Source: Deroplatys truncata
Taxonomy: Eukaryota; Arthropoda; Insecta; Mantodea; Mantidae
Assembly: GCA_030765065.1 (NCBI GenBank)
Contig: CM060989.1
Coordinates: 42,895,501-42,959,500, forward strand
DNA length: 64,000 nucleotides
Direction of reading: 5' to 3'
In this document: positions 1 to 64,000 of the stretch, piece by piece
Position numbering within the stretch: the first letter of the stretch is position 1
How the letters are laid out: each line of letters starts with the position of its first letter
The notes under the pieces: generated by a model
Seen by the model: the letters and a program-made list of their open reading frames with translations, nothing else
Databases searched by the model: none
Told to the model about the DNA's origin: nothing
Translations under genes and position numbers: made by a program

Positions 1-2056
1 TACGGTTCTCATCCATTTTTCTTTGCCTTCTGTAGAAATACTAATCCACCTCTGCACCTAGTATCACCATTCCCCGCTAACATATTTATAGCAAATTTAT
101 TTTACTCCCCTACCAATATTCGCCATAATCCCATATCCTTACAGTCTTTCATCTCATTTTTGCTTATTCCCTATTGGCAAAGGTGCAAAATCATATTCTC
201 ATATCCTGTGGTTCTTGGACACTCGGTTCCCTTACATTAGATTACAAGCACATTCACTATGTTATATATACTTCCAGACTCCGTGGTGGATAGGGAATAA
301 TCCTGGCTAGAGAGAAATTCCCTCCACCTGGGCAGGAATTCAACCCGAGGCCTCTCGCACAGCAGGCAGGTGCTCTATCAACTGATCGAGGAGGCCAGCC
401 TAGCTTTAGTGCTTTAACATCTTGAGTGCAGCTTACGGTTCTCATCCTTTTTTCTTTGCTTTCTGTAGAATTACCAATCCACCTCTGATCCTAGTATCTC
501 CATTCCCCGCTAACACATTTATAGCAAAATTATTGTACTCCCCTAACTATTTTCTCCATAATCCCATATCCTTACAGTCTGTCATCTCATTTATGCTTAT
601 TCCCTATTGGCAAAGGTGCAAAATCGTATTCTCTTATCCTGTGGTTCTTGACTTTCGGTTCCCTAACGTTAGATTACAAGCACATTCACTACCTTATATA
701 TACTTCCAGACTCCGTGGTGGATAGGGAATAATCCTGGCTAGAGAGAAATTCGCTCCACCTGGGCAGGAATTCAACACGAGGCCTCTCGCACAGCAGGCA
801 GGTGCTCTACCAACTGATCTAGGAGGCCAGCCTAGCTTTCTCCTTTAACATCTCGTGTGCAGCTTACGGTTCTCATCCATTTTTCTTTGCCTTCTGTAGA
901 AATACTAATCCACCTCTTCACCTAGTATCTCCATTTCCCGCTAACATATTTATAGCAACATTATTGTACTCCCCTAAATATTTTCTCCATAATCCCACGT
1001 CCTTACAGTCTGTCATCTCATTTATGCTTATTCCCTACTGGCAAAGGTGCAAAATCGTATTCTCTTATCCTGTGGTTCTTGAGTTTCAGTTCCATAACGT
1101 TAGATTACAAGCACATTCACTATCATATATACTTCCAGACTCCGTGGTGGATAGGAAATGATTCTGGCTTGAGAGAAATTCCCTCCACCTGGGCAGGAAT
1201 TCAACCCGAGGCCTCTCACACAGCAGCCAGGTGCTCCACTAACTGATCTAGGAGGCCAGCCCAGCTTTACTCGTTTAACATCTCGAGTGCAGCTTACGGT
1301 TCTCATCCTTTTTTCTTTGCTTTCTGTAGAAATACCAATCCAGCTCTGCTCCTAGTATCTCCAATCCCCGCTAACATAGTCATAGCAAAATTACTTTACT
1401 CCCCTACCTATTTTCTCCATAATCCCATATCCTTAGAGTCTGTCTTCTCATTTATGCTTATTCCCTATTGGCAAAGATGCAAAATCGTATTCTCTTATCC
1501 AGTGGTTCTTGGACTTTCGGCTCCCTAACATGAGATTAGAAGCACATTCACTATCTTATATATATACTTCCAGACTCCGTGGTGGATAGGGAATAATCCT
1601 GGCTAGAGAGAAATTCCCTCCACCTGGGCAGGAATTCTACCCGAGGCCTCTCGCACAACAGGCATGAGCTATAACAACTGAACTATGAGGCCATTCTTCC
1701 TTTTCTCCTTTATCATCTCCTCGTGTGCAGCTTACGGTTCTCATCCATTTTTCTTTGCCTTCTGTAGAAATACTAATCCACCTCTGCACCTAGTATCTCC
1801 ATTCCCCGCTAACATATTTATAGCAAAATTATTTTACTCCCCTACCAATTTTCGCCATAATCCCATATCCTTACAGTCTGTCATCTCATTTATGCTTATT
1901 CCCTATTGGCAAAGGTGCAAAATCGTATTCTCTTATCCTGTGGTTCTTGGACTTTCGGTTCCCTTACATTAGATTACAAGCACATTCACTATCTTATATA
2001 TACTTCCAGACTCCGTGGTGGATAGGGAATAATCCTGGCCAGAGAGAAATTCCCTC

Positions 2057-2128
2057 CACCTGGGCAGGAATTCAACCCGAGGCCTCTCGCACAGCAGGCA
2101 GGTGCTCTACCAACTGATCTAGGAGGCC
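2057..2128 (-). other. tRNA-like module, type A (anticodon-position GCT)
   Basis: On the - strand, numbering from the G at 2128, the sequence falls into tRNA register. It has T8, a D arm with A14, G18, G19 and A21, a seven-base anticodon loop with T33 and GCT at 34-36, a five-base variable loop, G53, T54, T55, A58 and C61. The A-box-like TAGATCAGTTGG is at 2110-2121 and the B-box-like GGTTGAATTCC at 2067-2077. Defects are clear. The D stem has an A11/G24 mismatch, the anticodon stem a C28/A42 mismatch, the acceptor stem only three Watson-Crick pairs plus a wobble, and position 56 is G instead of C. It is therefore a tRNA fossil or SINE-type head, not a working tRNA. The short variable loop argues against true Ser identity. 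One such module is present per monomer; this is a representative of the commonest type. Confidence 0.75.
2067..2121 (-). promoter_or_regulatory. Internal Pol III promoter remnants (A box and B box)
   Basis: The A-box-like element (2110-2121) has one departure from the TRGYNNARNNGG consensus: A at the Y position. The B-box-like element (2067-2077) departs from RGTTCRANNCC only by G in place of the invariant C (tRNA position 56). Spacing between the two is that of a short-variable-loop tRNA. Substitution of C56 is known from yeast tRNA genes to weaken TFIIIC binding strongly, so activity is doubtful even though the layout is kept. The first TTTT run on the same strand is about 200 bp downstream, near 1919, in GCAAAATCG of the + strand. 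Confidence 0.45.
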
Positions 2129-4240
2129 AGCCTAGCTTTACTCCTTTAACATCTCGAGTGCAGCTTACGGTTCTCATCCTTTTTTCTTTGCTTTCTGTAG
2201 AAATACCTATCCACCTCTGCTCCTAGTATCTCCAATCCCCGCAAACATATTCATAGCAAAATTATTTTACTGCCCTACCTATTTTCTCCATAATCCCATA
2301 TCCTTAGACTCTGTCATTTCATTTATGCTTATTCCCTAATGGCAAAGGTGCAAAATCGTATTCTCTTATCCTGTGGTTCTTGGACTTTCGGTTCCATAAC
2401 GTTAGATTACAAGCACATTCACTATCTTATAGATACTTCCAGACTCCGTGGTGGATAGGGAATAACTCTGGCTAGAGAGAAATTCCCTCCACCTGGGCAG
2501 GAATTCAATCCGAGGCCTCTCGCACAGCAGGCAGGTGCTCTACCAACTGATCTAGGAGGCCAGCCTAGGTTTTCTCCTTTAACATCTCGTGTGCAGCTTA
2601 CGGTTCTCATCCATTTTTCTTTGCCTTCTGTCGAAATACTAATCCACATCTGCACTTAGTATGTCCATTTCCCGCTAACATATTTATAGCAAAATTATTT
2701 TACTCCCCTACCAATTTTCGCCATAATCCTATATCCTTACAGTCTGTCATCTCAGTTATGCTTATTCCCTATTGGCAAAAGGTGCAAAATCGTATTCTCT
2801 TATCCTGTGGTTCTTGACTTTCGGTTCCCTAACGTTAGATTACAAGCACATTCACTACCTTATATATACTTCCAGACTCCGTGGTGGATAGGGAATAATC
2901 CTGGCTAGAGAGAAATTCCCTCCACCTGGGCAGGAATTCAACCCGAGGCCTCTCACACAGCAGGCAGGTACTTCACCAACTGGTCTAGCAGGCCAGCCTA
3001 GCTTTACTCGTTTAACATCTCCAGTGCAGCTTACGGTTCTCATCCTTTTTTCTTTGCTTTCTGTAAAAATACCAATCCACCTCTGCTTCTAGTATCTCCA
3101 ATGCCCGCTAACATATACAGAGCAAAATTATTTTACTCCCCTACCAATTTTCTCCATAATCCCATATCCTTAGAGTCTGTCTTCTCATTTATGCTTATTC
3201 CCTATTGGCAAAGATGCAAAATCGTATTCTCTTATCCTGTGGTTCTTGGACTTTCGGTTCCCTAACATGAGATTAAAACCACATTCACTATCTTATATAT
3301 ACTTCCAGACTCCGTGGTGGATAGGGAATAATCCTGGCTAGAGAGAAATTCCCTCCACTTGGGCAGGAATTCAACCCGAGGCCTCTCGCACAACAGGCAT
3401 GAGCTATAACAACTCAACTATGAGGCCATCCTTCCTTTTCTCCTTTAACATCTCCTCGTGTGCAGCTTACGGTTCTCATCCATTTTTTTGCCTTCTGTAG
3501 AAATACTAATCCACCTCTGCACCTAGTATCTCCATTTCCCGCTAACATATTTATAGCAAAATTATTTTACTCCCCTACGAATTTTCGCCATAATCCCATA
3601 TCCTTACAGTCTGTCATCTCATTTATGCTTATTCCCTATTGGCAAAGGTGCAAAATCGTATTCTCTTATCCTGTGGTTCTTGGACTTTCGGTTCCCTTAC
3701 ATTAGATTACAAGCACATTCACTATCTTATATATACTTCCAGACTCCGTGGTGGATAGGGAATAATCCTGGCTAGAGAGAAATTCCCTCCACCTGGGCAG
3801 GAATTCAACCCGAGGCCTCTCGCACAGCAGGCAGGTGCTCTACCAACTGATCTAGGAGGCCAGCCTAGCTTTACTCCTTTAAAATCTCGAGTGCAGTTTA
3901 CGGTTCTCATCCTTTTTTCTTTGCTTTCTGTAGAATTACCAATCCACCTCTGCTCCTAGTTACTCCAATCGCCGCTAACATATTCATGGCAAAATTATTT
4001 TACTGCCCTACCTATTTTCTCCATAATCCCATATCCTTAGAGTCTGTCATCTCATTTATGCTTATTGCCTATTGTCAAATATGCAAAATCGTATTTTCTT
4101 ATCCTGTGATTCTTGGATCTTCGGTTCCCTAACATTAGATTACAAGAACATTCACTATCTTATAAATACTTCCAGACCCGTGGAGGATAGGGAATAATCT
4201 TGGCTAGAGAGAAATTCCCTCCACCTGGGCAGGAATTCAA

Positions 4241-5175
4241 CCCAAGACCTATTGCACAGCAACAAGGTGCACTAACAACTGATCTAGAAGGCTAGGCTTC
4301 CTTTTCCTGTCGGTTAAAGTAATCTGGGTATGGTTCTCAACTCCTTTTTTCCTTTGGTACTAAAGTTGTAATTTGATCCTTATTGTAATCTTTGCCATAT
4401 CTCCAGTGTCCCTATATCTCCTATTCTATTTTTACCTGCTTTTCTACATCGCTTGCATTCTGTTCTAGTAGCTAGCATATGAACCCCGTTCCTACTATCG
4501 CCCTCGACCTTGCTATCCCTTCCCACCATGTTTCTACTTCCTAGGGTTTTAACGCTTTCACGGATAAGTAACATTTTTCCGTCTTCTGTAGTCAAACATA
4601 TATACCAGAACCGTTAATTTCACTGCCTTAGTATGACTTTCCTTCTTGTTTTTTTTTAACTGTAATATAGCTAATTCTCCTGGTGCTTATCTCAGTAACC
4701 CTAAAGCTCACATGGGCAGGGTCGCTACTCCCTGAGTAACGCTATCTCACTAGAGAGTCTTTACCTGTTACCCTTTTCATTTCCCATTAACATCCTTATA
4801 GCTACCATTTTCCACTGTTAATTTCTGCATGTTTGCTGCGAAGACCTTTTTCTCATTACACTAACTCCTTACATTATACTTTGTCTGTCGCCGCAAATTG
4901 ACATATTCCTTACCTCTACTCCTTAGATTCTCTCCATTAGTATACCTATCCTTCCTTCTTCCTCAGTTGTACCAAAGCTACTTCTCTGGCGTATATCTCG
5001 GTAACCGCTATAATTGGTTATTATTCTTTACATATATCTTACGTTTCACTTGCATCTGATCACACCCAGGTTACTACTACATTTTTTATATTTTAATAGA
5101 GCTTGTAGCTCTTCTTGTCCCTTCACCCTTATATTAAGTTTTCCCCATGCTACCTCTACTCTACCTCCCGCTAAC
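4241..5175. repeat. Long diverged block 1 (left family, subtype alpha)
   Basis: The regular monomer switches at CCCAAGACCTATTGCACAGC into about 935 bp of different sequence and returns to monomer sequence at about 5176. Its first bases are a decayed tRNA-like module (type D). The next stretch, around GGTTCTCAACTCCTTTTTTC (4332-4351), still resembles the monomer opening; beyond that similarity fades. Private features are TCGACCTTGC (others have GATCTTGC), a short deletion in CCACCATGTTTC, and a CTCTGGCGTATATCTCGG variant shared in part with block 8. No gene is recognised. A small - strand open frame at 4380-4595 is broken in several sister blocks. Confidence 0.9.
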
Positions 5176-7276
5176 TCTTTAACATATCCTCATGTGCAGC
5201 TGATGTTTTTCATCCATTTTTCTTTGCTTTCTGTAGAAATACTAATTCACCTCCGCTCCTAATATCTCCATTCTATGCTAACATATTTATAGCAAAATTA
5301 TTCCTCTCCCATACCTATTTTCTCCATAATCCTATATCATTACAGTCTGTCATCTCATTTATGCCTATTCCCTATTGCCAGAAGTGCAAAATCGTATTCT
5401 ATTATGCTGTGGTTCTTGGACTTTCGGTTCCCTAACATTAGATAACAAGCACATTCGTTATCTTATATATACTTCGAGACTCCGTGGTGGATAGGGAATA
5501 ATCCTGGCTAGAGAGAAATTCCCTCCACCTGGGCAGGAATTCAACCCGAGGCCTCTCGCACAGCAGGCAGGTGCTCTACCAACTGATCTAGGAGGCCAGC
5601 CTAGCTTTTCTCCTTTAACATCTCGTGTGCAGCTTACGTTTCTCATCCTTTTTTCTTTGCTTTCTGTAGAATTACCAATCCACCTCTGATCCTAGTACCT
5701 CCATTCCCCGCTAACATATTTATAGCAACATTATTGTACTCCCCTAACTATTTTCTCCATAATCCCATATCCTTACAGTCTGTCATCTCATTTATGCTTA
5801 TTCCCTATTGGCAAAGGTGCAAAATCGTATTCACTTATCTTGTGGTTCTTGACTTTCGGTTCCTTAACGTTAGATTACAAGCACATTCACTATCTTATAT
5901 ATACTTCCAGACTCCGTGGTGGATAGGGAATAATCCTGGCTAGAGAGAAATTCCCTCCACCTGGGCAGGAATTCAACCCGAGGCCTCTCGCACAGCAGGC
6001 AGGTGCTATAACAACTGAACTATGAGCCCAGCCTTCCTTTTCTCCTTTAACATCTCCTCGTGTGCAGCTTACGGTTCTCATCCATTTTTTTGCCTTCTGT
6101 AGAAATACTAATCCACCTCTGCACCTAGTATCTCTATTCCCCGCTAACATATTTGTAGCAAAATTATTTACTCCCCTACCAATTTTCGCCATAATCCCAT
6201 ATCCTTTTATTCTGTCATCACATTTATGCTTATTCCCTATTGGAAAAAGTGCAAAATTGTATTCTCTTATCCTGTCATTCCTGGACTTTCGGTTCCCTAA
6301 CATTAGATTACAAGCACATTCATTATCTTATATACACTTCCAGACTCCGTGGTGGATAGGGAATAATCCTGGCTAGAGAGAAATTCCCTCCACCTGGGCA
6401 GGAATTCAACCCGAGGCCTCTCGCACAACAGGCATGAGCTATAACAACTGAACTATGAGGCCATTCTTCCTTTTATCCTTTATCATCTCCTCGTGTGCAG
6501 CTTACGGTTCTCATCCATTTTTCTTTGCGTTCTGTATAAATACTAATCCACCTCTGCACCTAGTATCTCCATTCCCCGCAAACATATTTATAGCAAAATT
6601 ATTTTACCCCCTTCCAAAGTTCCGCATAATCCCATATCCTTACAGTCTGTCATCTCATTTATGCTTATTCCCTATTGGCAAAGGTGCAAAATCGTATTCT
6701 CTTATCCTGTGGTTCTTGGACTTTCGGTTCCCTAACATTAGATTACAAGCACATTCACTATCTTATATATACTTCCAGGTTCCGTGGTGGATAGGGAATA
6801 ATCCTGGCTAGAGAGAAATTACCTCCATCTAAACAGGAATTCAACCCGAGGCCTCTCGCACAGCAGGCAGGTGCTCTACCAACTGATCTAGGAGGCCAGC
6901 CTAGCTTTACTCGTTTAACATCTGGAGTGAGGCTAACGGTTCTCATCCTTTTTTCATTGTTTTCTGTAGAAATACCAATCCACCTCTGCTCCTAGTATCT
7001 CCAATGCCCGCTAACATATACATAGCAAAATTATTTTACTCCCCTACCAATTTTCTCCATAATCCCATATCCTTAGAGTCTGTCTTCTCATTTATGCTTA
7101 TTCCCTATTGGCAAAGATGCAAAATCGTTTCTCTTATCCTGTGGTTCTTGGACTTTCGGTTCCCTAACATTAGATTACAAGCACATTTATTATCTTATAT
7201 ACACTTCCAGACTCCGAGGTGGATAAGGAATAATCCTGGCTAGAGAGAAATTCCCTCCACCTGGGCAGGAATTCAA
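5176..7276. repeat. Regular satellite array, segment 2 (5 tRNA-like landmarks)
   Basis: Five monomers, with GACTCCGTGGTGG landmarks near 5480, 5910, 6345, 6782 and 7215. The first monomer has the variant core TTCTATGCTAACATATTTAT with ATTCC and CCTATATCATTACAG (5270-5350), a form that left of the LINE is seen mainly right after a long block. The 6060-6300 copy has a shortened T run and carries ATTCTGTCATCACATTT, a sub-variant that recurs at 8820 and 31810-32700. Confidence 0.93.
6391..6462 (-). other. tRNA-like module, type B (anticodon-position GTT)
   Basis: This variant module reads TAGTTCAGTTGT in the A-box position, restoring the pyrimidine that type A lacks but losing G19. The D-loop/stem is TTATAGCTC, and the loop CTGTTGT places GTT at anticodon positions 34-36. 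The B-box half is as in type A, including G at position 56. On the + strand it is recognised by GGCATGAGCTATAACAACTG followed by AACTATGAGGCC. It is common left of the LINE (for example ending near 1692, 9932, 11234, 14268, 19914, 24690, 28592, 29890, 33864 and 34731). Hybrids with the type A anticodon arm end near 6040, 8630 and 32495. Confidence 0.65.
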
Positions 7277-8212
7277 ACCAAGACCTATTGCACAGCAACA
7301 AGGTGCACTAACAACTGATCTAGAAGGCTAGGCTTCCTTTTCCTGTCGGTTAAAGTAATCTGCGTATGGTTCTCAACTCCTTTTTTCCTTTGGTACTAAA
7401 GTTGTAATTTGATCCATATTGTAATCTTTGCCATATCTCCAGTGTCCCTATATCTCCTATTCTATTTTTACCTGCTTTTCTACATCGCTTGCATTCTGTT
7501 CTAGTAGGTAGCATATGAACCCCGTTCCTACTATCGCCCTCGATCTTGCTATCCCTTCCCACCATCTGTTTCTACTTCCTAGGGTTTTAACGCTTTCACG
7601 GATAAGTAACTTTTTTCCGTCTTCTGTAGTCAAACATGTATACCAGAACCGTTAATTTCACTGCCTTAGTATGACTTTCCTTCTTGCTTTTTTTAACTGT
7701 AATATAGCTAATTCTCCTGGTGCTTATCTCAGTAACCCTAAAGCTCACATGGGCAGTGTCGCTACTCCCTGAGTAACGCTATCTCAGTAGAGAGTCTTTA
7801 CCTGTTACCCTTTTCATTTCCCATTAACATCCTTATAGCTACCATTTTCCACTGTTAATTTCTACATGTTAGCTGCGAAGACCTTTTTCTCATGACACTA
7901 ACTCCTTACATTATACTTTGTCTGTCGCCGCAAATTGATATATTCCTTACCTCTACTTCTTAGATTCTCTCCATTAGTATTCCTATCCTTCCTTCTTCCT
8001 CAGTTGTACCAAAGCTACTTCTCAGGCGTATATCCCGGTAACCGCTAAAATGGTTATTATTCTTTACATATATCTTACGTTTCACTTGCATCTGATCACA
8101 CCCAGGTCACTACTACATTTTTTTTATTTTAATAGAGCTTGTAGCTCTTGTTGTCCCTTCACCCTTATATTAAGTGTTCCCCATGCTACCTCTGTCTCTA
8201 CCTCCCGCTAAC
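7277..8212. repeat. Long diverged block 2 (left family, subtype alpha-like)
   Basis: This block begins with AAACCAAGACC, a one-base change from the usual AACCCAAGACC. Private variants include GTAGGTAGCATATG, CATGTTAGCTGCG, CATGACACTAAC, TTGATATATTCC and a two-base loss at CGCTAAAATGG. No coding sequence is recognised. It is followed by a monomer with the TTCTATGC core variant, as block 1 is. Confidence 0.9.
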
Positions 8213-11200
8213 TCCTTAACATATCCTCATGTGCAGCTGATGTTTTTCATCCATTTTTCCTTGCTTTCTGTAGAAATACTAATTCACCTCCGCTCCTAGT
8301 ATCTCCATTCTATGCTAACATATTTATAGCAAAATTATTCCACTCCCTTACCTATTTTCTCCATATTCCTATATCATTACAGTCTGTCATCTCATTTATG
8401 CCTATTCCCTATTGCCAAAAGTGCAAAATCGTATTCTCTTATGTTGTGGTTCTTGGACTTTCGGTTCCCTAACATTAGTTAACAAGCACATTCGTTATCT
8501 TATATATACTTCCAGACTCCGTGGTGGATAGGGAATAATCCTGGCTAGAGAGAAATTCCCTCCACCTGGGCAGGAATTCAACCCGAGGCCTCTCGCACAG
8601 CAGGCAGGTGCTATAACAACTGAACTATGAGCCCAGCCTTCCTTTTCTCCTTTAACATCTCCTCGTGTTCAGCTTACGGTTCTCATCCATTTTTCTTTTC
8701 CTTCTGTAGAAATACTAATCCACCTCTGCACCTAGTATCTCTATTCACCGCTAACATATTTATAGCAAAAGTATTTTACTCCCCTACCAATTTTCGCCAT
8801 AATCCCATATCCTTACATTCTGTCATCACATTTATGCTTATTCCCTATTGACAAAGGTGCAAAATCGTATTCTCTTATCCTCTCATTCTTAGACTTTCAA
8901 TTCCCTAACATTAGATTACAAGCACATTCATTATCTTATATACACTTCTAGAGTCCGTGGTGGATAGGGAATAATCCTGGCTAGAGAGAAATTCCCTCCA
9001 CCTGGGCAGGAATTCAACCCGAGGCCTCTCGCGCAGCGGCAGGTGCTCTACCACCTGATCGAGGAGGCCAGCCTAGCTTTACTACTTTAATATCTTGAGT
9101 GCAGCTTACGGTTCCCATTCTTTTTTCTTTGCTTTCTGTAGAATTACCAATCCATCTCTGATCCTAGTATCTCCATTCCCCGCTAACATATTTAAAGCAA
9201 AATTATTGTACTCCTCTAACTATTTTCTCCATAATCCCATATCCTTACAGTCTGTCATCTCATTTATGCTTATTCCCTATTGGCAAAGGTCAAAATCCTA
9301 TTCTCTTATACTGTGGTTCTTGACTTTCGGTTCCCTAACGTTAGATTACAAGCACATTCACTATCTTATATATACTTCCAGACTCCGTGGTGGATAGGGA
9401 ATAATCCTGGCTAGAGAGAAATTCCCTCCACCTGATCAGGAATTCAACCCGAGGCCTCTTACACAGCAGGCAGGTGCTCCACCAACTGATCTAGGAGGCC
9501 AGCCTAGCTGTACTCCTTTAACATCTCGAGTGCAGCTTAGGGTTCTCATCCTTTTTTCTTTGCCTTCTGTAGAAATACCAATCCACCTCTGCTCCTAGTA
9601 TCTCCAATCATCGCTAACATATTCATAGCAAAATTATTTTACTCCTCTACCTATTTTCTCCATAATCCCATATCCTTAGAGTCTGTATTCTCATTTATGC
9701 TTATTCCCTATTGGCAAAGATGCAAAATCGTATTCTCTTATCCTGTGGTTCTTGGACTTTCGGTTCCCTAACATGAGATTAAAAGCACATTCGCTATCTT
9801 ATAAATACCTCCAGACTCCGTGGTGGATAGGGAATAATCCTGGCTAGAGAGAAATTTCCTCCACCTGGGCAGGAATTCAACCCGAGGCCTCTCGCACAAC
9901 AGGCATGAGCTATAACAACTGAACTATGAGGCCAGCCTTCCTTTTCTCCTTTAACATCTCCTCGTGTGCAGCTTACGGTTCTCATCCATTTTTCTTTGCC
10001 TTCTGTAGAAATACTAATCCACCTCTGCACCTAGTATCTCCATTCCCCGCTAACATATTTATAGCAAAATTATTTTACTCCCCTACCAATTTTCGCCATA
10101 GTCCCATATCCTTGCAGTCTGTCATCTCATTTATGCTTATTCCCTATTGGCAAAGGTGCAAAATCGTATTCTCTTATCCTGTGGTTCTTGACTTTCGGTT
10201 CCATAACGTTAGATTACAAGCAAATTCACTATCTTATAAATACCTCCAGACTCCGTGGTGGATAGGTAATAATCCTGGCTAGAGAGAAATTCCCTCCACC
10301 TGGGCAGGAATTCAACCCGAGGCCTCTCTCACAGCAGGCAGGTGCTCTACCAACTGATCTAGGAGGCCAGCCTAGATTTTCTCCTTTAACATCTCGTGTG
10401 CAGCTTGCGGTTCTCATCCTTTTTTCTGTGCCTTCTGTAGAAATACTAATCGAGCTCTGTACCTAGTATCTCCATTCCCCGTTAACATATTTATAGCAAA
10501 ATTATTTTTCTCCCCTTCCAATTGTCGCCATAATCCCATATCCTTACAGTCTGTCATCTCATTTATGCTTATTCCCTATTGGCAAAGGTGTAAAATCGTA
10601 TTCTCTTATCCTGTGGTTCTTGGACTTTCGGTTCCTTAACATTAGATTACAAGCACTTTCACTATCTTATATATACTTCCAGACTCCGTGTTGGATAGGG
10701 AATAATCCTGGCTAGAGAGAAATTCCCTCCATCTGGACAGGAATTCAACCCGAGGCCTCTCGCACAGCAGGCAGGTGGTCTGCCAACTGATCTAGGAGGC
10801 CAGCCTAGCTTTTCTCCTTTAACATCTCGTGTGCAGCTTTCGGTTCTCATCCTTTTTTCTTTGCTTTCTGTAGAAATACCAATCCACCTCTGCTCCTAGT
10901 ATCTCCAATGCCTGCTAACATATACATAGCAAAACTATATTACTCCCCTACCAATTTTCTCCATAATCCCATATCCTTAGAGTCTGTCTTCTCATTTATG
11001 CTTATTCCCTATTGGCAAAGATGCAAAATCGTATTCTCATATCCTGTGGTTCTTGGACTTTCGGTTCCCTAACATGAGATTAAAACCACATTCACTATCT
11101 TATATATACTTCCAGACTCCGTGGTGGATAGGGAATAATCCTGGCTAGAGAGAAATTCCCTCCACCTGGGCAGGAATTCAACCCGAGGCCTCTCGCACAA

Positions 11201-50669: not shown

Positions 50670-53627
50670 TCTTTAACATCTCCTCATGTGCAGCTCATGT
50701 TTCTCATCCATTTTTCTTTGCTTTCTGTAGAAATACTAATTCACCTCCGCACCTAGTATCTCCATTCTATGCTAACATATTTATAGCAAAACTATTCCAC
50801 TCCCTTACCTATTTTCTCCATAATCCCATATTAGTACAGTCTGTCATCTCATTTATGCCTATTCCCTATTGCCAAAGGTGCAAAATCGTATTCTCTTATG
50901 CTGTGGTTCTTGGACTTTCGGTTCCCTAAATTTAGATTACAAGCACATTCACAATCTTATATATACTTCCAGACTCCGTGGTAGATAGGGAATAATCCTG
51001 GCTAGACAGAAATTCCCTCCACCTGGGCAGGAATTCAACCCGAGGCCTCTCGCACAGAAGGCAGGTGCTCTACCAACTGATCTAATAGGCCAGCATACTC
51101 CTTCTCCTTTAACATCTCGTGTGCAGCTTACGGTTCTCATCCATTTTTCTTTGCGTTCTGTAGAAATACTAATCCACCTCTGCACCTAGTATCTCCATTC
51201 TATGCTAACATATTTATAGCAAAATTATTCCACTCTCTTACCTATTTTCTCCATAATCCTATATCATTACAGTCTGTCATATCATTTATGCTTATTGCCT
51301 AATGGCAAAGGTGCAAAATCGTATTCTCTTATACTGTGGTTCTTGGACTTTCGGTTCCCTAACTTTAGATTACAAGCACATCCACTATCTTATATATACT
51401 TCCAGACTCCGTGGTGGATAGCGAATAATCCTGGCTAGAGATTCCACCTGGGCAGGAATTCAACCCGAGGCCTCTCGCACAGAAGGCAGGTGCTCTACTA
51501 ACTGATCTAATAGGCCAGCCTACCATTTCTCCTCTAACATCTCGTGTGCAGCTTACGGTTCTCATCCATTTTTCTTTGCCTTCTGTAGAAATACTAATCC
51601 ACCTCTGCACCTAGTATTTCCATTCTATGCTAACACATTTATAGCAAAATTATTCCACTCCCTTACCTATTATCTCCATAATCCTATATCATTACAGTCT
51701 GTCATCTCATTTATGCTTATTCCCTATTTGCAATGGTGCAAAATCGTATTCTCTTATCCAGTGGTTCTTGGACTTTCGGTTCCCTAACATTAGAATACAA
51801 GCACATTCACTATCTTATATATACTTCCAGACTCCGTGGTGGATATGGAATAATCCTGGCTAGAGAGAAATTCCCTCCACCTGGGCAGGAATTCAACCCG
51901 AGGCCTCTCGCACAGAAGGCAGGTGCTCTACTAACTGATCTAATAGGCCAGCCTACCATTTCTCCTATAACATCTCGTGTGCAGCTTACGGTTCTCATTC
52001 ATTTTTCTTTGCCTTCTGTAGAAATACTAATCCACCTCTGCACCTAGTATCTCCATTCTATGCTAACACATTTATAGAAAAATTATTCCACTCCTTTACC
52101 TATTATCTCCATAATCCTATATCATTACAGTCTGTCATCTCATTTATGCTTATTCCCTATTTGCAATGGTGCAAAATCGTATTATCTTATCCAGTGGTTC
52201 TTGGACTTTCGGTTCCCTAACATTAGATTACAAGCACATCCACTATCTTATATATACTTCCAGACTCCGTGGTGGATAGGGAATAATCCTGGCTAGAGAG
52301 AAATTCCCTCCACCTGGGCAGGAATTCAACCCGAGGCCTCTCGCACAGCAGGCAGGTGCTCTACCTACTGATCTAGGAGGCCAGCCTAGCTTTTCTCCCT
52401 TAACATCTCGAGTGCAGCTTACGGTTCTCATCATTTTTTCTTTGCTTTCTGTAGAAATACCAATCCACCTCTGCTCCTAGTATCTCCAATCTCCAATAAC
52501 ATATTCATAGCAAAATTATTTTACTCCCCTACCTATTTTCTCCATAATCCCATATCCTTAGAGTCTGTCACCTCATTTATGCTAATTCCCAATTGGCAAA
52601 TATGCAAAATCGTATTCTCTTATCCTGACAATCTTGCACTTTCGGTTCCCTAACATTAGATTACAAGCACATTCACTGTCTTAAATATACTTCCAGACTC
52701 CGTGGTGGATAGGGAATAATCCTGACTAGAGAGAAATTCCCTCCACCTGGGCAGGAATTCAACCCGAGGCCTCTCGCACAGCAGGCAGGTGCTCTACCAA
52801 CTGATCTAGGAGGCCAGCCTAGCTTTTCTCCCTTAACATCTCGAGTGCAGCTTACGGTTCTCATCATTTTTTCTTTGCTTTCTGTAGAAATACCAATCCA
52901 CCTCTGCTCCTAGTATCTCCAATCTCCAATAACATATTCATAGCAAAATTATTTTACTCCCCTACCTATTTTCTCCATAATCCCATATCCTTAGAGTCTG
53001 TCACCTCATTTATGCTAATTCCCAATTGGCAAATATGCAAAATCGTATTTTCTTATCCTCTGGTTCTTGGACTTTCGGTTCCATAACTTTAGATTACAAG
53101 CAGATTCACTATCCTATATAAACTTCCAGACTCCGTGGTGGATAGGGAATAATCCTGGCTAGAGAGAAATTCCCTCCACCTGGGCAGGAATTCAACCCGA
53201 GGCCTCTCGCACAGCAGGCGGGTGCTCTACCAACTGATCTAGGAGGCCAGCCTAGCTTTTCTCCCTTAACATCTCGAGTGCAGCTTACGGTTCTCATTAT
53301 TTTTTCTTTGCTTTCTGTAGAAATACCAATCCACCTCTGCTCCTAGTATCTCCAATCTCCAATAACATATTCATAGCAAAATTATTTTACTCCCCTACCT
53401 ATTTTCTCCATAATCCCATATCCTTAGAGTCGGTCATCTCGTTTATGCTTATTCCCTATTGGCAAAGGTGCAAAATCGTATGCTCTTATCCTGTGGTTCT
53501 TGGACTTTCGGTTCCCTAACATAGATTAAAAGCACATTCACTATCTTATATATACTTCCAGACTCCGTGGTGGATAGGGAATAATCCTGGCTAGAGAGAA
53601 ATTTCCTCCACCTGGGCAGGAATTCAA
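50670..53627. repeat. Regular satellite array, segment 11 (7 landmarks)
   Basis: Seven monomers. One (51430-51450) has lost eight bases in CTAGAGATTCCACCTGG. Three consecutive units from 52243 to 53400 are nearly the same monomer (CTCGAGTGCAGC, CTCCAATAACATATTC, GTCACCTCATTTATGC), a local amplification. The unit at 51810-52060 resembles 38818-39070 and 56145-56400. Confidence 0.92.
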
Positions 53628-54563
53628 CCCAAGACCTATTGCACAGCAACCAGGTGCAATAACAACTGATCTAGGAGGCTAGGCTTCGTTTCCTTGTCGG
53701 TTAAAGTAATCTACGTATGGTTCTCAACTCCTTTTTTCCTTTGGTACTTAAGTTGTAATTTGATCCATATTGTAATCTTTGCCATATCTCCAGTGTCCCT
53801 ATATCTCCTATTCTGTTTTTACCTGCTTTTCTACATCACTTGCATTCTTTTCTAGTAGCTAGCATATGAACCCCGTTCCTACTATCGCCCTAGATCTTGC
53901 TATCCCTTCCCACCTTCTGTTTCAGCTTCCTAGGGTTTTAACGCTTTCACGGATACGTTACATTTTTCCGTCTTCTGTAGTCAAACATATATACCAGAAC
54001 TGTTAAATTCACTGCCTTAGTATGACTTTCCTTCTTGCTTTTTTTAACTGTAATATAGCTAATTCTCCTGGTGCTTATCTCAGTAACCCTAAAGCTCACA
54101 TGGGCAGGGTCGCTACTGCCTGAGTAAGCATATCTCAGTAGAGAGTCTTTACCTGTTACCCTTTTCATTTCCCATTAACATCCTTATAGCTACCATTTTC
54201 CACTGTTAATTTCTACATGTTTGCTGCGAAGACCTTTTTCTCATTACACTAACTCCTTACATTATACTTTGTCTGTCGCCGCAAACTGACATCTTCCTTA
54301 CCTCTACGTCATAGATTCTCTCCATTAGTATACCTATCCTTCCTTCTTCCTCAGTTTTACCAAAGCTACTTCTCAGGCGTATATCCCGGTAACCGCTAAA
54401 TTGGTTATTATTCTTTACATATATCTTACGTTTCACTTGCATCTGATCACACCCAGGTCACTGCTACATTTTTTTTATTTTAATAGAACCTGTAGCTCGT
54501 GTTGTCCCTTCACCCTTAAATTAAGTGTTCCCCATGCTACCTCTGTCTCTACCTCCCGCTAAC
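53628..54563. repeat. Long diverged block 11 (right family, subtype epsilon-like)
   Basis: Private changes are GGCTTCGTTTCC, CTACGTATGG, GGTACTTAAGTTG, GATACGTTACATT, GAACTGTTAAATTC, CTACTGCCTGAGTAAGCATATC, CAAACTGACATCTTCC and GAACCTGTAGC. It also shares CTTCATAG-like changes (TACGTCATAG) with block 10's TACTTCATAG. No gene is recognised. Confidence 0.9.
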
Positions 54564-57500
54564 TCTTTAACATCTCCTCATGTGCAGCTCATGTTTCTCA
54601 TCCATTTTTCTTTGCTTTCTGTAGAAATACTAATTCACCTCCGCTCCTACTATCTGCATTCTATGCTAACATATTTATAGCAAAACTATTCCACTCCCTT
54701 ACCCATTTTCTCCATAATCCCATATCATTAAGGTCTGTCATCTCATTTATGCCTATTCCCTATTGCCAAAGGTGCAAAATCGTATTCCCTTATGCTGTGG
54801 TTCTTGGACTTTCGGTTCCCTAACATTAGATAACAAGCACATTCATTATCTTATATATACTTCCAGACTCCGTGGTGGATAGGGAATAATCCTGGCTAGA
54901 GAGAAATTCCCTCCACCTGGGCAGGAATTCAACCAGAGGCCACTCGCACAGAAGGCAGGTGCTCTACCAACTGATCTAGGAGGCCAGCCTAGCTTTTCTC
55001 CTTTAACATCTCGTGTGCAGCTTACGGTTCTCATCCATTTTTCTTTGCCTTCTGTAGAAATACTAATCCACCTCTGCACCTAGTATCACCATTCCCCGCT
55101 AACATATTTATAGCAAATTTATTTTACTCCCCTACCAATATTCGCCATAATCCCATATCCTTACAGTCTGACATCTCATTTATGCTTATTCCCTATTGGC
55201 AAAGGTGCAAAATCATATTCTCATATCCTGTGGTTCTTGGACACTCGATTCCCTTACATTAGATTACAAGCACATTCACTATATTATATATACTTGCAGA
55301 CTACGTGGTGGATAGGGAATAATCCTGGCTAGAGAGAAATTCCCTCCACCTGGGCAGGAATTCAACCCGAGGCCTCTCGCACAGCAGGCAGGTTCTCTAC
55401 CAACTGACCTAAGAGGCCAGCCTAGCTTTTCTCCTTTAACATCTCGTGTGCAGCTTACGGTTCTCATCCATTTTTCTTTGCCTTCTGTAGAAATACTAAT
55501 CCACCACTGCACCTAGTATCTCCATTCCCAGATAACATATTTATAGCAAACTTATTTTACTCCCGTACCAATTTTCGCCATAATCCCATATTCTTACAGT
55601 CTGTCATCTCATTTATGCTTATTCCCTATTGGAAAAGGTGCAAAATCGTATTCTCTTATCCTGTGGTTCTTGGACTATCGGTTCCCCAACATTAGATTAC
55701 AAGCACATTGAATATTATATATATACTTCCAGACTCCGTGGTAGATAGGGAATAATCCTGGCTAGAGAGAAATTCCCTCCACCTGGGCAGGAATTCAACC
55801 CGAGACCTCTGGCACATCAGACAGGTGCTATAACAACTGAACTATGAGCCCAGCCTTCCTTTTCTCCTTTAACATCTCGTGTGCAGCTTACGGTTCTCAT
55901 CATTTTTTCTTTGCTTTCTGTAGAAATACCAATCCACCTCTGCTCCTAGTATCTCCAATCCCCGCTAACACATTCATAGCAAAATTATTTTACTCCCCTA
56001 CCTATATTCTCCATAATCCCATATCCTTAGAGTCTGTCATCTCATTTATGCTAATTCCCTATTGGTAAATATGCAAAATCGTATTTTCTTATCCTGTGGT
56101 TCTTGGACTTTCGGTTACCTAACTTTAGATTACAAGCACATCCACTATCTTATATATACTTCCAGACTCCGTGGTGGATAGGGAATAATCCTGGCTAGAG
56201 AGAAATTCCCTCCACCTGGGCAGGAATTCAACCCGAGGCCTCTCGCACAGAAGGCAGGTGCTCTACTAACTGATCTAATAGGCCAGCCTACCATTTCTCC
56301 TATAACATCTCGTGTGCAGCTTACGGTTCTCATTCATTTTTCTTTGCCTTCTGTAGAAATACTAATCCACCTCTGCACCTAGTATCTCCATTCTATGCTA
56401 ACACATTTATAGCAAAATTATTCCACTCCCTTACCTATTATCTCCATAATCCTATATCATTACAGTCTGTCATCTCATTTATGCTTATTCCCTATTTGCA
56501 ATGGTGCAAAATCGTATTCTCTTATCCAGTGGTTCTTGGACTTTCGGTTCCCTAACATTAGAATACAAGCACATTCATTATCTTATATATACTTCCAGAC
56601 TCCGTGATGGATAGGGAATAATCCTGGCTAGAGAGAAAATCCCTCCACCTGGGCCGGAATTCAACCCGAGGCCTCTCGTACAGCAGGCAGGTGCTCTACC
56701 AACTGATCTAGGAGGCCAGCCTAGCTTTTCTCCTTTAACATCTCGTGTGCAGCTTACGGTTCTCATCCATTTTTCTTTTCCTTCTTTCCACCTCTGCACC
56801 TAGTATCTCCATTCCCCGCTAACATACGTATGGCAAATTTATTTTACTCCCCTACAAATTTTCGCCATAATCCCAAATTCTTACTATCTGTCATCTCATT
56901 TATGCTTATTCCCTATTGGCAAAGGTGCAAAATCGCATTCTCTTATCCTGACAATCTTGCACTTTCGGTTCCCTTACATTAGATTACAAGCACATTCACT
57001 ATGTTATATATACTTCCAGACTCCGTGGTGGATAGGGAATAATCCTGGCTAGAGAGAAATTCCCTCCACCTGGGCAGGAATTCAACGCGAGGCCTCTCGC
57101 ACAGCAGGTAGGTGCTCTACCAACTGATCTAGGAGGCCAGCCTAGCTTTTCTCCCTTAACATCTCGAGTGCAGCTTACGGTTCTCATCATTTTTTCTTTG
57201 CTTGCTGTAGAAATACCAATCCACCTCTGCTCCTAGTATCTCCAATCTCCAATAACATATTCATAGCAAAATTATTTTACTCCCCTACCTATTTTCTCCA
57301 TAATCCCATATCCTTAGAGTCTGTCTCCTCATTTATGCTAATTCCCTATTGGGAAATATGCAAAATCGTATTTTCTTATCCTGTGGTTCTTGGACTTTCG
57401 GTTCCCTAACTTTAGATTACAAGCACATTCACTATCCTATATATACTTCCAGACTCCGTGGTGGATAGGGAATAATCCTGGCTAGAGAGAAATTCCCTCC

Positions 57501-59685: not shown

Positions 59686-60965
59686 CCCAAGACCTATTGC
59701 ACAGCAACCAGGTGCACTAACAACTGATCTAGGAGGCTAGGCTTCCTTTCCTTGTCGGTTAAAGTAATCTGCGTATGGTTCTCAACTCCTTTTTTCCTTT
59801 GGTACTAAAGTTGTAATTTGATCCATATTGTAATCTTTGCTATATCTCCAGTGTCCCTATATCTCCTATTCTGTTTTTACCTGCTTTTCTACATCACTTG
59901 CATTCTTTTCTAGCAGCTAGCATATGAACCCCGTTCCTACTATCGCCCTAGATCTTGCTATCCCTTCCCAACTTCTGTTTCAGCTTCTTAGGGTTTTAAC
60001 GCTTTCACGGATACGTAACATTTTTCCGTCTTCTGTAGTCAAACATATATACCAGAACCGTTAAATTCACTGCCTTAGTATGACTTTCCTTCTTGCTTTT
60101 TTAAACTGTAATATAGCTAATTCTCCTGGTGCTTATCTCAGTAACCCTAAAGCTAACATGGGCAGGGTCGCTACTCCCTGAGTAAGGCTATCTCAGTAGA
60201 GAGTCTTTACCTGTTACCCTTTTCATTTCCCATTAACATCCTTATAGCTACCATTTTCCACTGTTAATTTCTACATGTTTGCTGCGAAGACCTTTTTCTC
60301 ATTACACTAACTCCTTACATTATACTTTGTCTGTCCCCGTAAATTGACATATTCCTTACCTCTACTTCATAGATTCTCTCCATTAGTATACCTATCGTTC
60401 CTTCTTCCTCAGTTCTACCAAAGCTACTTCTCAGGCGTAAATCCCGATAACCGCTATAATTCCATATTATTCTTTACATATATCTTACGTTTCACTTGCA
60501 TCTTATCACACCCAGGTCACTGCTACATTTTTTTTATTTTAATAGAACTTGTAGCTCGTGTTGTCCCTTCACCCTTAAATTAAGTGTTCCCCATGCTACC
60601 TCTGTCTCTACCTCCCGCTAACTCTTTAACATCTCCTCATGTGCACCTCATGTTTCTCATCCATTTTTCTTTGCTTTCTGTAGAAATACTAATTCACCTC
60701 CGCTCCTAGTATCTCCATTCTATGCTAACTTATTTATAGCAAAATTCTTCCACTCTCTTACCTATTTTCTCCATAATCCTATATCATTACAGTCTGTCAT
60801 CTCATTTATGCTTATTCCCTAATGGCAAAGGTGCAAAATCGTATTCTCTTATCCTGTGGTTCTTGGACTTTCGTTTCCTTAACATAGATTAAAAGCACAT
60901 TCACTATCTTATATATACTTCCAGACTCCGTGGTGGATAGGGAATAATCCTGGCTAGAGAGAAAT
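55967..60965. repeat. Long duplicated tract in the right array, copy 2
   Basis: It is paired with 38640-43650. Downstream, 60990-62125 continues as a match to 44100-45240 at a reduced offset (16884 bp), so one monomer is absent in this copy. Confidence 0.75.
59686..60622. repeat. Long diverged block 12 (right family, subtype delta)
   Basis: It shares all delta markers with block 9 and, with block 13, also has TTTGCTATATCTCC, TCTAGCAGCTAGC and CAGCTTCTTAGGG. Private changes include CCTATCGTTCC, ATCCCGATAACC, ATAATTCCATATTATTC and GCATCTTATCACACC. A 79-codon + strand open frame at 60344-60583 exists only because of this block's local changes and is not credible. Confidence 0.9.
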
Positions 60966-63590
60966 TCCCTCCACCTGGGCAGGAATTCAACCCGAGGCCT
61001 CTCGCACAGCAGGCAGGTGCTCTACCTACTGATCTAGGAGGCCAGTCTAGCATTTCTCCCTTAACATCTCGAGTGCACTTTACGGTTCTCATCATTTTTT
61101 CCTTGCTTTCTGTAAAAATACCAATCCACCTCTGCTCCTAGTATATCCAATCTCCAATAACATATTTATAGCAAAATTATTTTACTCCCCTACCAATTTT
61201 CGCCATAATCCCATATCCTTAGAGTCTGTCATCTCATTTATACTTATTCCATATTGGCAAAGGTGCAAAATCGTATTCTCTTATACTGTGGTTCTTGGAG
61301 TTTCGGTTCCCTAGCATTAGATTACAAGCACATTCATTATCTTTTATATACTTCCAGACTCCGTGGTGGATAGGGAATAATCCTGGCTAGAGAGAAATTC
61401 CCTCCACCTGGGCAGGAATTCAACCCGAGGCCTCTCGCACAGCAGGCAAGTGCTCTACCAACTGATCTAGGAGCCCAACCTAGCATTTCTCCTTTAACAT
61501 CTCGTGTGCAGCTTACGGTTCTCATCCATTTTTCTTTGCCTTCTGTAGAAATAATAACCCACCTCTGCACCTAGTATCTCCATTCACCGCTAACATATTT
61601 ATAGCAAAATTATTTTACTCCCCTACCAATTTTGGCCATAATCCCATATTCTTACAGTCTGTCATCTCATTTATGTTTATTCCCTATTGGCAAAGCTGCA
61701 AAATCGTATTATCTTATCCTGTGGTTCTTGGGCTATCGGTTCCCTAACATTAGATTACAAGCACATTCAATATTGTATATATACTTCCAGACTCCGTGGT
61801 GGATAGGGAATAATCCTGGCTAGAGAGAAATTCCCTCCACCTGGGCAGGAATTCAACCCGAGGCCTCTCGCACAGAAGGCAGGTGCTCTACTAACTGATC
61901 TAATAGGCCAGCCTACCATTTCTCCTCTAACATCTCGTGTGCAGCTTACGGTTCTCATCCATTTTTCTTTGCCTTCTGTAGAAATACTAATCCACCTCTG
62001 CACCTAGTATCTCCATTCTATGCTAACACATTTATAGCGAAATTATTCCACTCCCTTACCTATTATCTCCATAATCCTATATCATTACAGTCTGTCATCT
62101 CATTTATGCTTATTCCCTATTTGCAATGGTGCAAAATCGTATTCTCTTATCCTGTGGTTCTTGGAATTTCGGTACCCTAACATTAGATTACAAGCACATT
62201 CACTATGTTATATATACTTCCAGACTCCGTGGTGGATAGGGAATAATCCTGGCTAGAGAGAAAATCCCTCCACCTGGGCCGGAATTCAACCCGAGGCCTC
62301 TCGTACAGCAGGCAGGTGCTCTACCAACAGATCTAGGAGGCCAGCCTAGCTTTTAACCTTTAACATCTCGTGTGCAGCTTACGGTTCTCATCCATTTTTC
62401 TTTTCCTTCTGTAGAAATACTAATCCACCTCTGCACCTAGTATCTCCATTCCCCGCTAACATACGTATAGCAAAATTATTTTACTCCCCTACGAATTTTC
62501 GCCATAATCCCAAATTCTTACTATCTGTCATCTCATTTATGCATATTCCCTATTGGCAAAGGTGCAAAATCGCATTCTCTTATCCTGACAATCTTGCACT
62601 TTCGGTTCCCTTACATTAGATTACAAGCACATTCACTATGCTATATATACTTCCAGACTCCGTGGTGGATAGGGAATAATCCTGGCTAGAGAGAAATTCC
62701 CTCCATCTGGGCAGGAATTCAACCCGAGGCCTCTCGCACAGAAGGCACGTGCTCTACCAACTGATCTTATAGGCCAGCATACTCTTTCTCCTTTAAGATC
62801 TCGGCTGCAGCTTATGGTTCTCATCCATTTTTCTTTGCCTTCTGTAGAAATATTAATCCACCTCTGCACCTAGTATCTCCGTTCTATGCTAACATATTTA
62901 TAGCAAAATTATTCCACTCTCTTACCTATTTTCTCCATAATCCTATATCATTACAGTCTGTCATATCATTTATGCTTATTCCCTAATGGCAAAGTTGCAA
63001 AATCGTATTCTCTTATACTGTGGTTCTTGGACTTTCGGTTCACTAACATTAGATTAAAAGCACATTCATTATCTTATATATACTTCCAGATTTCGTGGTG
63101 GATAGGGAATAATCCTGGCTAGAGAGAAATTCCCTCCACCTGGGCCGGAATTCAACCCGAGGCCTCTCGCACAGCAGGCAGGTGCTCTAACAATTGAACT
63201 ATAAGGTCAGCCTTCCTTTTCGCCTATAACATCTCCTCGTGTGCAGCCTAGGGTTCTCATCCATTTTTCTTTGCTTTCTTTAAAGAAACTAATCGACCTG
63301 TGCTCCTAGAATCTCCATTCCCCGCTAACATATTTATAGCAAAATTATTTTACTCCCCTACCTATTTTCTCCGTAATCCCATATCCTTAGAGTCTGTCAT
63401 CTCATTTATGCTTATTCCCTATTGGCAAAGGTGCAAAATCGTATTCTCTTATCCTGTGGTTCTTGGACTTTCTGTTCCCTAACATAGATTAAAAGCACAT
63501 TCACTATCTTATATATACTTCCAGACTCCGTGGTGGATAGGGAATAATCCTGGCTAGAGAGAAATTCCCTCCACCTGGGCAGGAATTCAA
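60623..63590. repeat. Regular satellite array, segment 13 (7 landmarks)
   Basis: Seven monomers. It follows block 12 with sequence matching 44,100 onward, so one monomer present after block 9 is missing here. At about 62135-62160 it switches to a copy of 58230 onward, sharing TTGGAATTTCGGTACC, ACCAACAGATCTAGG and CAGATTTCGTGG. Confidence 0.93.
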
Positions 63591-64000
63591 CCCAAGACCT
63601 ATTGCACAGCAACCAGGTGCACTAACAACTGATCTAGGAGGCTAGGCTTCCTTTCCTTGTCGGTTAAAGTAATCTGCGTATGGTTCTCAACTCCTTTTTT
63701 CCTTTGGTACTAAAGTTGTAATTTGATCCATATTGTAATCTTTGCTATATCTCCAGTGTCCCTATATCTCCTATTCTGTTTTTACCTGCTTTTCTACATC
63801 ACTTGCATTCTTTTCTAGCAGCTAGCATATGAACCCCGTTCCTACTATCGCCCTAGATCTTGCTATCCCTTCCCAACTTCTGTTTCAGCTTCTTAGGGTT
63901 TTAACGCTTTCACGGATACGTAACATTTTTCCGTCTTCTGTAGTCAAACATATATACCAGAACCGTTAAATTCACTGCCTTAGTATGACTTTCCTTCTTG
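63591..64000. repeat. Long diverged block 13 (subtype delta, cut by window end)
   Basis: The first 410 bp of another delta block follow block 12 base for base as far as I could compare (GCTATATCTCC, TAGCAGCTAGC, CTTCTTAGGG). It starts 3905 bp, nine monomer units, after block 12. Confidence 0.9.

Follow-up and report, generated by a model that had tools for sequence, protein, structure and literature searches.

A 64,000-nt stretch of the mantis Deroplatys truncata (GCA_030765065.1, CM060989.1:42,895,501–42,959,500, forward strand), hereafter the window, carries tandem repeats with a tRNA-like module on the opposite strand. The question raised by this locus is where the module originated and whether it still acts as a Pol III promoter. 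As initially annotated, the repeat recurs every 433 bp, with TRF giving this period across positions 1–63706. A monomer profile gave 122 matches in the window, all on the + strand, of which 119 were near full length. The series is broken by 897-bp units and split by one 1,156-bp LINE fragment, and the array runs past both ends of the window. As estimated from samples rather than a reading throughout, it extends from ~42.8657 Mb to between 43.256 and 43.262 Mb of the contig (C15), or ~390 kb. Two arrays lie on this 134-Mb contig, at ~29.9–30.3 and 42.87–43.26 Mb, each roughly 0.35–0.4 Mb long. One array filling the whole 30–43 Mb interval was ruled out, as none of 13 sparse 1.2-kb probes at 30.30–42.83 Mb contained a monomer, an 897-bp unit, or the older satellite described below. 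The 433-bp series forms long head-to-tail non-coding arrays and is satellite DNA in that sense. The mean pairwise identity among the 119 monomers was 0.902, and far-apart monomers were 99–100% identical in runs (e.g., 13015, 18661, and 26904); this identity pattern is that of concerted evolution by unequal exchange. The coordinates of the features are collected in Table 1.

Table 1. Features of the repeat array in the window
Feature	Positions	Strand	Remarks
Array of ~433-bp B-SINE monomers	1..63658	+	TRF and 122 profile matches
Example monomer, 431 of ~433 bp	1734..2164	+	1–165 old-satellite B; ~162–399 reversed SINE; 400–431 link to next B
SINE part of example monomer, head and body	1895..2132	-	Coordinates mapped from consensus
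tRNA-like head of example monomer	2056..2128	-	60.7 bits, E 1.3e-18, SINE-head covariance model
Best SINE-head covariance model match	31992..32064	-	63.6 bits, E 1.2e-19
Best Rfam tRNA model match	61412..61469	-	23.7 bits; model positions 8–63 of 71
897-bp SINE-free unit, copy 1	4308..5204	+	Read as A-B'-A' of old satellite
897-bp SINE-free unit, copy 2	7344..8241	+	
897-bp SINE-free unit, copy 3	12116..13014	+	
897-bp SINE-free unit, copy 4	15153..16053	+	
897-bp SINE-free unit, copy 5	17762..18660	+	
897-bp SINE-free unit, copy 6	21231..22131	+	
897-bp SINE-free unit, copy 7	26005..26903	+	
897-bp SINE-free unit, copy 8	30775..31671	+	
897-bp SINE-free unit, copy 9	42438..43333	+	
897-bp SINE-free unit, copy 10	49802..50698	+	
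897-bp SINE-free unit, copy 11	53695..54592	+	
897-bp SINE-free unit, copy 12	59754..60651	+	
897-bp SINE-free unit, copy 13, cut by window end	63659..64000	+	

The tRNA-like module was matched 121 times in the window, always on the - strand, and 120 of these matches were full. Its columns fell into tRNA numbering, as had been proposed for about 120 monomers (of 120 copies, T8 in 117, A14 in 115, G18 in 111, G19 in 80 with T in 38, A21 in 109, T33 in 118, G53 in 118, T54 in 117, and T55, A58, and C61 in 116 each). The further claim that every unit carries the module needs correcting: it is absent from the 12 full and one cut 897-bp units, and the LINE fragment interrupts the series. The generic tRNA signal of the module is weak. 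In the window, ARAGORN with default settings called no tRNA, and the Rfam tRNA model gave no match at its gathering score, the best reaching 23.7 bits against a cut-off of 29; neither the score nor the closed cloverleaf of a functional tRNA gene was found. Under relaxed ARAGORN settings, the 120 modules were compared with 600 dinucleotide shuffles, and calls were obtained from 5/120 versus 1/600 at -ps90, 53/120 versus 27/600 at -ps80, 87/120 versus 162/600 at -ps70, and 98/120 versus 284/600 at -ps50. The covariance-model check suggested in the initial annotation stayed below the gathering score with the Rfam model and was positive with a SINE-head model, which was built from 13 dispersed heads outside the array (13 of 19 usable heads aligned). 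The latter gave 121 matches on the - strand of the window (E 1.2e-19 to 6.1e-7) and one on the + strand (E 0.032). Across array edges and probes totaling 26.8 kb, it had a single match, a relic module at the left edge. The module was confirmed as real, beyond chance.

The dispersed elements were sought with two patterns. A 42-bp SINE body pattern, allowing 3 mismatches, occurred at 6,947 genome sites compared with none for the reversed control; the satellite consensus differs from it at 7 of the 42 places, as counted by eye. All 30 inspected sites, chosen on the body alone, were SINE copies, and they served to build the dispersed consensus; since these loci match the pattern exactly, they represent better-kept copies. 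Dispersed copies sharing the head, named beforehand as a supporting observation, were thereby found. A head pattern occurred at 860 genome sites, part of them non-dispersed, and 8 of the 30 loci fetched (L029–L036) were the C15 satellite itself. Among the remaining 22 loci, 17 entered the first SINE profile and L012, L014, L019, L023, and L038 were left out. L014 has a SINE body with a different tail, and the other four have no SINE body; L023 resembles a true tRNA gene. The family has a tRNA-related head with A and B boxes (consensus B box GGTTCGATTCC), and an Rfam tRNA match lay at the SINE head in 8 of the 20 loci listed out of 30, the best at 29.9 and 29.4 bits against the cut-off of 29. 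By eye, A-rich ends were seen on dispersed copies, and target-site duplications of 11–13 bp were seen on three of the 30 (L055, L060, and L065). At the anticodon place, the SINE head has GCT, which would nominally indicate Ser; a short variable arm stands in the way of assigning this parent tRNA.

The similarity between satellite and SINE continues beyond the tRNA-like head. Monomer consensus positions ~162–399 were 84.2% identical to the dispersed SINE over 234 aligned bases of head and body, and the 17-copy SINE profile matched the monomer with 181.7 bits (E 5.7e-57), likewise spanning both. Relative to the dispersed SINE, the satellite lacks the final ~65 nt. Another origin, in which a tRNA gene was caught directly in a satellite with no SINE involved, would agree with the tRNA numbering of the module columns and the weak Rfam match. 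However, the satellite and the dispersed copies also share ~165 bp of the SINE body that follows the head; this reading was therefore rejected as extremely improbable. Of the two origins first considered, a tRNA gene or a tRNA-derived SINE, the SINE stands.

The rest of the monomer has another source. In a partition test, the profile of monomer positions 1–165 gave eight matches (E<1e-3) in 12 kb of flanking older satellite and none in 30 joined SINE stretches and 65.8 kb of their flanks. Conversely, the profile of positions 166–399 gave 30 matches in the 30 SINE stretches and none in the 12 kb of older satellite; three SINE-part matches (E<1e-3) in the control DNA were read as extra SINE copies in the flanks. 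Monomer positions 400–431, the final 32 bp, had no significant match of their own to the older satellite or the SINE. The older satellite is present at both sampled edges of the 43-Mb array, and no SINE was present in the 12 kb examined. As judged from these matches, the monomer is chimeric, with one part from an older satellite and another from a tRNA-derived SINE, present as a reversed, decayed copy. With its source SINE dispersed in the same genome, it belongs with SINE-derived satellites. The initial annotation had missed that no more than just over half of the monomer is SINE, with older satellite as the remainder. Satellites can disperse, and the dispersed SINEs might conversely be monomers that escaped from a pre-existing satellite. 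Nothing direct favored this view, to which we give almost no credence: the old-satellite (B) profile is missing from the 30 SINE stretches and their flanks, position 56 of the B box is C in 25 of 30 dispersed rows, most dispersed copies extend beyond the end of the satellite's SINE part, and some carry the target-site duplications mentioned above.

The second repeat of the window, the SINE-free 897-bp unit, had also been missed. It was considered as two diverged 433-bp monomers, but its alignment to the doubled monomer scored 15, within the range of shuffles (mean 13.4, maximum 19, n=200), and only short stretches matched (unit positions 471–509 and 871–895). The two halves of the unit are alike (score 28 versus a shuffle maximum of 24, n=200). 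A putative A-B'-A' arrangement of the old satellite fits better than a doubled monomer.

Forms between the older satellite and the 433-bp monomer were also present. Three ~1-kb A + B-SINE units of intermediate structure were located on another contig, C12 (97.911–97.9145 Mb), and a decayed B-SINE stub lies within the old satellite at the left array edge (L039:3247–3410). A midpoint-rooted tree was built from 51 rows, comprising 18 window copies (of the 119 near full length), the three C12 copies, and 30 dispersed copies; the 30-Mb array and the L039 stub were left out. The 21 satellite copies formed one branch (100/100), apart from the 30 dispersed copies, pointing to a single founding event for the satellite SINE copies sampled. 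As the C12 copies were grouped in only 28% of bootstrap trees, the order of C12-like before C15-like units is based on unit structure and not on the tree.

The shared SINE head and body, the old-satellite source of positions 1–165, the intermediates, and the single branch of sampled copies are demonstrated; we infer the order of events and the recombination mechanism from them. Very probably, the satellite is a SINE-derived chimera, in which a SINE came to lie reversed in part B of the old satellite and B-SINE was then amplified alone on C15. An older ~0.84–0.89-kb A+B satellite would have received a tRNA-derived SINE in its B part by insertion or fusion, the captured copy being without its 3' end. 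The A + B-SINE units would then have spread by the usual turnover of satellites, through unequal exchange and related recombination. Subsequently, the 433-bp B-SINE piece may have been freed from A and amplified alone into the two C15 arrays, with the 897-bp A-B'-A' units as probable remnants interspersed among the monomers. The B part is far diverged from the old satellite (best profile match 27.7 bits), which has several period variants (886 and 1,258), and the parental unit given above is therefore approximate.

For the first step, recombination between a satellite and a SINE copy, instead of SINE insertion, is a possible but rather unlikely route. The missing SINE 3' end and a short shared ATTCCCTAT-like stretch at the break, seen by eye only, are in its favor; insertion followed by deletion would give the same picture, and nothing counts against fusion itself. 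No target-site duplication was noticed at the satellite SINE copy, short of a systematic search; together with the missing 3' end, this makes insertion and fusion indistinguishable. The monomer is best conserved in a stretch that contains an inverted repeat, GGTGGATAGGGAAT / ATTCCCTCCACC, located just within the SINE body. It is improbable that the capture itself, for instance through this repeat or a remnant of Pol III factor binding, made B-SINE the winner over its parent satellite. If so, the SINE would not be a mere passenger: the repeat or remnant would have promoted breakage, slippage, or protein binding, and a new satellite, dominant on one contig, would trace back to a mobile element.

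The insertion or fusion model treats the tRNA module as a passenger, and the state of its promoter was consistent with this. TFIIIC makes base-specific contacts with the B box, and C56, which we take from yeast SUP4 mutants to be a critical base, is present in none of the 120 window copies (G in 116, T in 2, A in 2). It was likewise absent from the 30-Mb array (0/36), other samples of the 43-Mb array and its left edge (0/65 with a letter), and the C12 copies (0/3), whereas 25 of the 30 dispersed rows that have a letter there carry it. The damage to the B box probably dates from the founding copy or close to it. The annotated A and B boxes at tRNA spacing are kept as blocks in the 120 copies, while the B box lacks the C56 expected of an active type-2 Pol III promoter; the term Pol III promoter relic was apt in the sense of a relic. 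Selection on the module was not supported, as its mean conservation (0.934) was no better than that of the rest of the monomer (0.945; rank 239 of 360 windows, 119 monomers).

A still-active Pol III promoter or TFIIIC site, through which the array is transcribed or insulated, would suit the A-box-like and B-box-like blocks at tRNA spacing in 120 copies, 113 of which contain no run of at least four T in module columns 71–95. It is nevertheless very improbable in view of the universal loss of C56 in the window, the D-stem pair 11–24, which is mostly A.G (A11 in 94/120, G24 in 116/120), and the conservation, with consensus positions 361–380 within the module showing the lowest conservation of any 20-bp block in the monomer. 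The promoter looks dead, and the module is probably without function, judging from conservation and one base. This array shows that A-box and B-box blocks in a tRNA-like module, even when repeated from one monomer to the next, need not imply a working promoter.

Related systems have been described. According to Vassetzky et al. 2023, the SINE-derived satellites (sSats) of squamate reptiles are tandem repeats of part of a tRNA-related SINE, with up to 1000 units per locus and homogenised long arrays; in most, a SINE portion is repeated and a longer terminal unit reaches the SINE end, and variants without it occur (PMC10702118). The mantis array similarly consists of tandem units from a partial tRNA-related SINE with dispersed copies in the same genome. 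Unlike the sSats as described there, its monomer is in part older satellite, and that satellite, in place of the longer terminal unit, lies at the two sampled edges of the 43-Mb array (PMC10702118). The same source lists amphibian tRNA-like tandem repeats, namely, newt PolIII/TAN, Xenopus OAX (satellite I), Rana/polIII, and Hydromantes Hy/polIII, with units of ~200–360 nt in three of them, and its section on these calls the SINE-satellite cases inconclusive (PMC10702118). They share with the mantis array tandem units containing a tRNA-like segment, whereas the mantis genome has dispersed SINEs sharing head and body; moreover, newt PolIII/TAN is transcribable in vitro, whereas the B box of the mantis module lacks C56 (PMC10702118). 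As in Messor, where a mariner element (Mboumar) lies within satellite DNA, a mobile element resides in a satellite, but that element is a DNA transposon and the mantis element is a SINE, with parental, intermediate, and amplified forms in one assembly (PMC9659126). SINE-derived satellites are already known; the mantis array is a well-documented variant in which the SINE part is joined to an older satellite. Since the dispersed source, the SINE-free older satellite, the intermediates, and the amplified product all occur in one assembly, the route from mobile element to satellite component can be laid out as an ordered series of testable steps.

The 4.29-Gb genome (818 contigs) was searched with a 26-base pattern of the satellite head carrying a canonical B box, and 860 sites were obtained at up to three mismatches (reversed control, 0). 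When 30 of these sites were fetched, 8 were the satellite itself, and 17 of the other 22 were dispersed SINE copies. Dispersed copies with the same head, which the initial annotation had proposed to look for, thus exist, and the profile built from these 17 also matched the satellite monomer (consensus 399 down to 148, - strand, 181.7 bits, E 5.7e-57). Moreover, a second pattern, taken from the SINE body alone, from which the satellite consensus deviates at 7 places, gave 6,947 genome sites (reversed control, 0), and all 30 sites fetched matched the SINE profile.

In the consensus of these 30 copies, a tRNA-like head, whose B box reads GGTTCGATTCC, was followed by the body and then by an A-rich end. 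Target-site duplications of 11–13 bp were seen by eye in three dispersed copies, and of 20 loci (from the 30) scanned with the Rfam tRNA model, 8 matched at the head, 2 of them above the cut-off. Over 234 aligned bases, the SINE part of the satellite and the dispersed consensus shared 84.2% identity, while the copies behind that consensus averaged 89.7%; the satellite copy stopped ~65 nt short of the SINE's 3' end. Directly after the head, nt 83–87 of the dispersed consensus read TTTTT, a possible internal Pol III terminator; under a strict pattern, 15 of the 30 copies had at least four consecutive T there. The satellite consensus reads TTTCT at this site, and a T run of at least 4 occurred in module columns 71–95 in 7 of 120 copies.

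In the window, 121 module matches were found, all on the - strand and 120 of them full. The tRNA numbering proposed from the sequence held, with columns agreeing with tRNA positions at zero shift, except that the conserved G19 was weaker than stated (G in 80 of 120, T in 38). Generic tRNA tests gave a weak signal: ARAGORN at default made zero calls in the window, and Rfam gave zero matches at the gathering score and, with E up to 10, just two across all families, each to tRNA and on the - strand (23.7 and 21.0 bits). With relaxed ARAGORN, 120 modules versus 600 shuffles gave 5 versus 1 calls at -ps90, 53 versus 27 at -ps80, 87 versus 162 at -ps70 and 98 versus 284 at -ps50, a proportionally higher rate in the modules. 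The decisive evidence that the module exceeds chance was a covariance model that included cloverleaf pairs and was trained, independently of the window, on 13 dispersed SINE heads. It recovered 121 - strand modules at E 6.1e-7 or better against a single + strand match (E 0.032); applied to 26.8 kb taken from array edges and further probes, the model gave one match, a relic in the fetched stretch L039.

The remainder of the monomer was traced to a diverged older satellite at the array edges, with parts A and B. A profile of monomer positions 1–165 had 8 matches at E<1e-3 in 12 kb of the right edge and none in the SINE stretches. The profile of positions 166–399 matched the 30 SINE stretches 30 times and the same 12 kb of old satellite not once. 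The final 32 bp had no significant match to either. These matches indicate that the monomer is a chimera that joins old-satellite B to a SINE in reverse orientation and ends in a short link.

Period 433 extended across the window, which lies at C15:42,895,501–42,959,500 and is one stretch of a longer array. A profile built from the window gave 122 monomer matches, all on the + strand and 119 near full length. The series was broken at 13 places by an ~897-bp unit (12 full, one truncated by the window end), which also matched the old satellite and was read as A-B'-A'. One further break was a 1,156-bp insert, a retrotransposon fragment with no plain target-site duplication and with imperfectly similar monomer positions (~260–301) on either side. 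The 13 monomers preceding the 897-bp units formed their own class, with a mean identity of 0.938 within the class and 0.885 to other monomers (0.906 among those others), and the eleven lowest - strand scores of the SINE-head model all fell on such monomers. Both results are as expected if these monomers belong to an A-B'-A'-B-SINE unit, not to the amplified monomer.

Features of the array, its edges and related loci
Feature	Position	Remarks
Non-LTR retrotransposon fragment, 5'-truncated	window 35076–36231	inside a monomer; Pfam RVT_1, E 5e-10; terminates in AATAAAAA
Tandem duplication of 69-bp tRNA-module stretch	window 32886–33023	98% match; extra partial module
Inverted repeat GGTGGATAGGGAAT / ATTCCCTCCACC	monomer consensus 284–327 (e.g. 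window 2017–2060)	by eye, from consensus; in SINE body, best-conserved part of monomer
Strong hairpins	L061:189–318 (-); L054:2122–2216 (+)	fetched stretches; miRNA-model matches below cut-offs; perhaps inverted-repeat elements adjoining SINEs
Diverged older satellite	42.860 Mb; 43.262–43.282 Mb	array edges; periods 886 and 1,258 at right edge
Old-satellite edges of opposed C15 arrays	L083 (C15:29,900,001–29,901,200); L043/L050 (C15:43.270–43.282 Mb)	98.7% identity across 1,201 bp, inverted; separated by 13 Mb
B/SINE junctions on contig C12	97,912,279; 97,919,441; 97,926,603	steps of exactly 7,162 bp
Arrangement 1: old satellite without SINE	12 kb of right edge	
Arrangement 2: A + B-SINE units, ~1 kb	three on C12; left edge of C15 array	decayed stub at left edge
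Arrangement 3: tandem 433-bp B-SINE monomer		A-B'-A' units interspersed

The B/SINE junction pattern gave 1,367 sites (reversed control, 0); among the 100 matches listed, 97 lay on C15 and 3 on C12, where the copies seem to lie within a recent 7.2-kb tandem duplication. A tree with 51 rows placed 18 of the 119 window copies and the 3 C12 copies on a single branch (100/100 support), separate from the 30 dispersed copies. A single founding event with subsequent satellite turnover explains this branch and the three surviving arrangements. The event may have been an insertion by retrotransposition or a fusion; these are indistinguishable because the 3' end of the SINE is missing and no target-site duplication was noticed at the satellite copy. 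The likeness between the edges of the opposed C15 arrays may be due to inverted duplication or to an inversion with edges in common, or it may be an artefact of the assembly.

Mean conservation was 0.934 for the module versus 0.945 for the rest of the monomer, and the module ranked 239 of 360 among windows of the same size; the best-conserved window started at position 272, in the SINE body. Functional B boxes have C at position 56, and a change of C56 cripples the B box in yeast tRNA genes. Base-specific contacts of TFIIIC in the B box are described in PMC11724288. In the window, position 56 was G in 116 of the 120 modules, T or A in 2 each and C in none. C56 was likewise missing from all 65 modules with a letter there in other samples of the 43-Mb array and its left edge, from 36/36 sampled modules of the opposed array near 30 Mb (L029–L032, which come from that array too, carry T) and from 3/3 C12 copies, but C was present in 25 of 30 dispersed SINE rows with a letter there. 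This distribution suggests that the founding copy, or one close to it, had already lost the promoter.

Within the portions of the literature consulted, the review PMC12628747 contained no whole-word SINE or tRNA in a word search, and searches of open-access literature showed no monomer that joins a SINE to an older satellite while its genome also keeps parent and intermediate forms. Squamate SINE-derived satellites are documented in PMC10702118, which judged older amphibian cases inconclusive; the squamate work is cited in the review PMC12692304, and satellites containing mobile elements are recorded in PMC9659126. Thus, SINE-derived and element-bearing satellites are known, while a chimera of a SINE and an old satellite with coexisting parent and intermediates appears new within the open-access literature searched.
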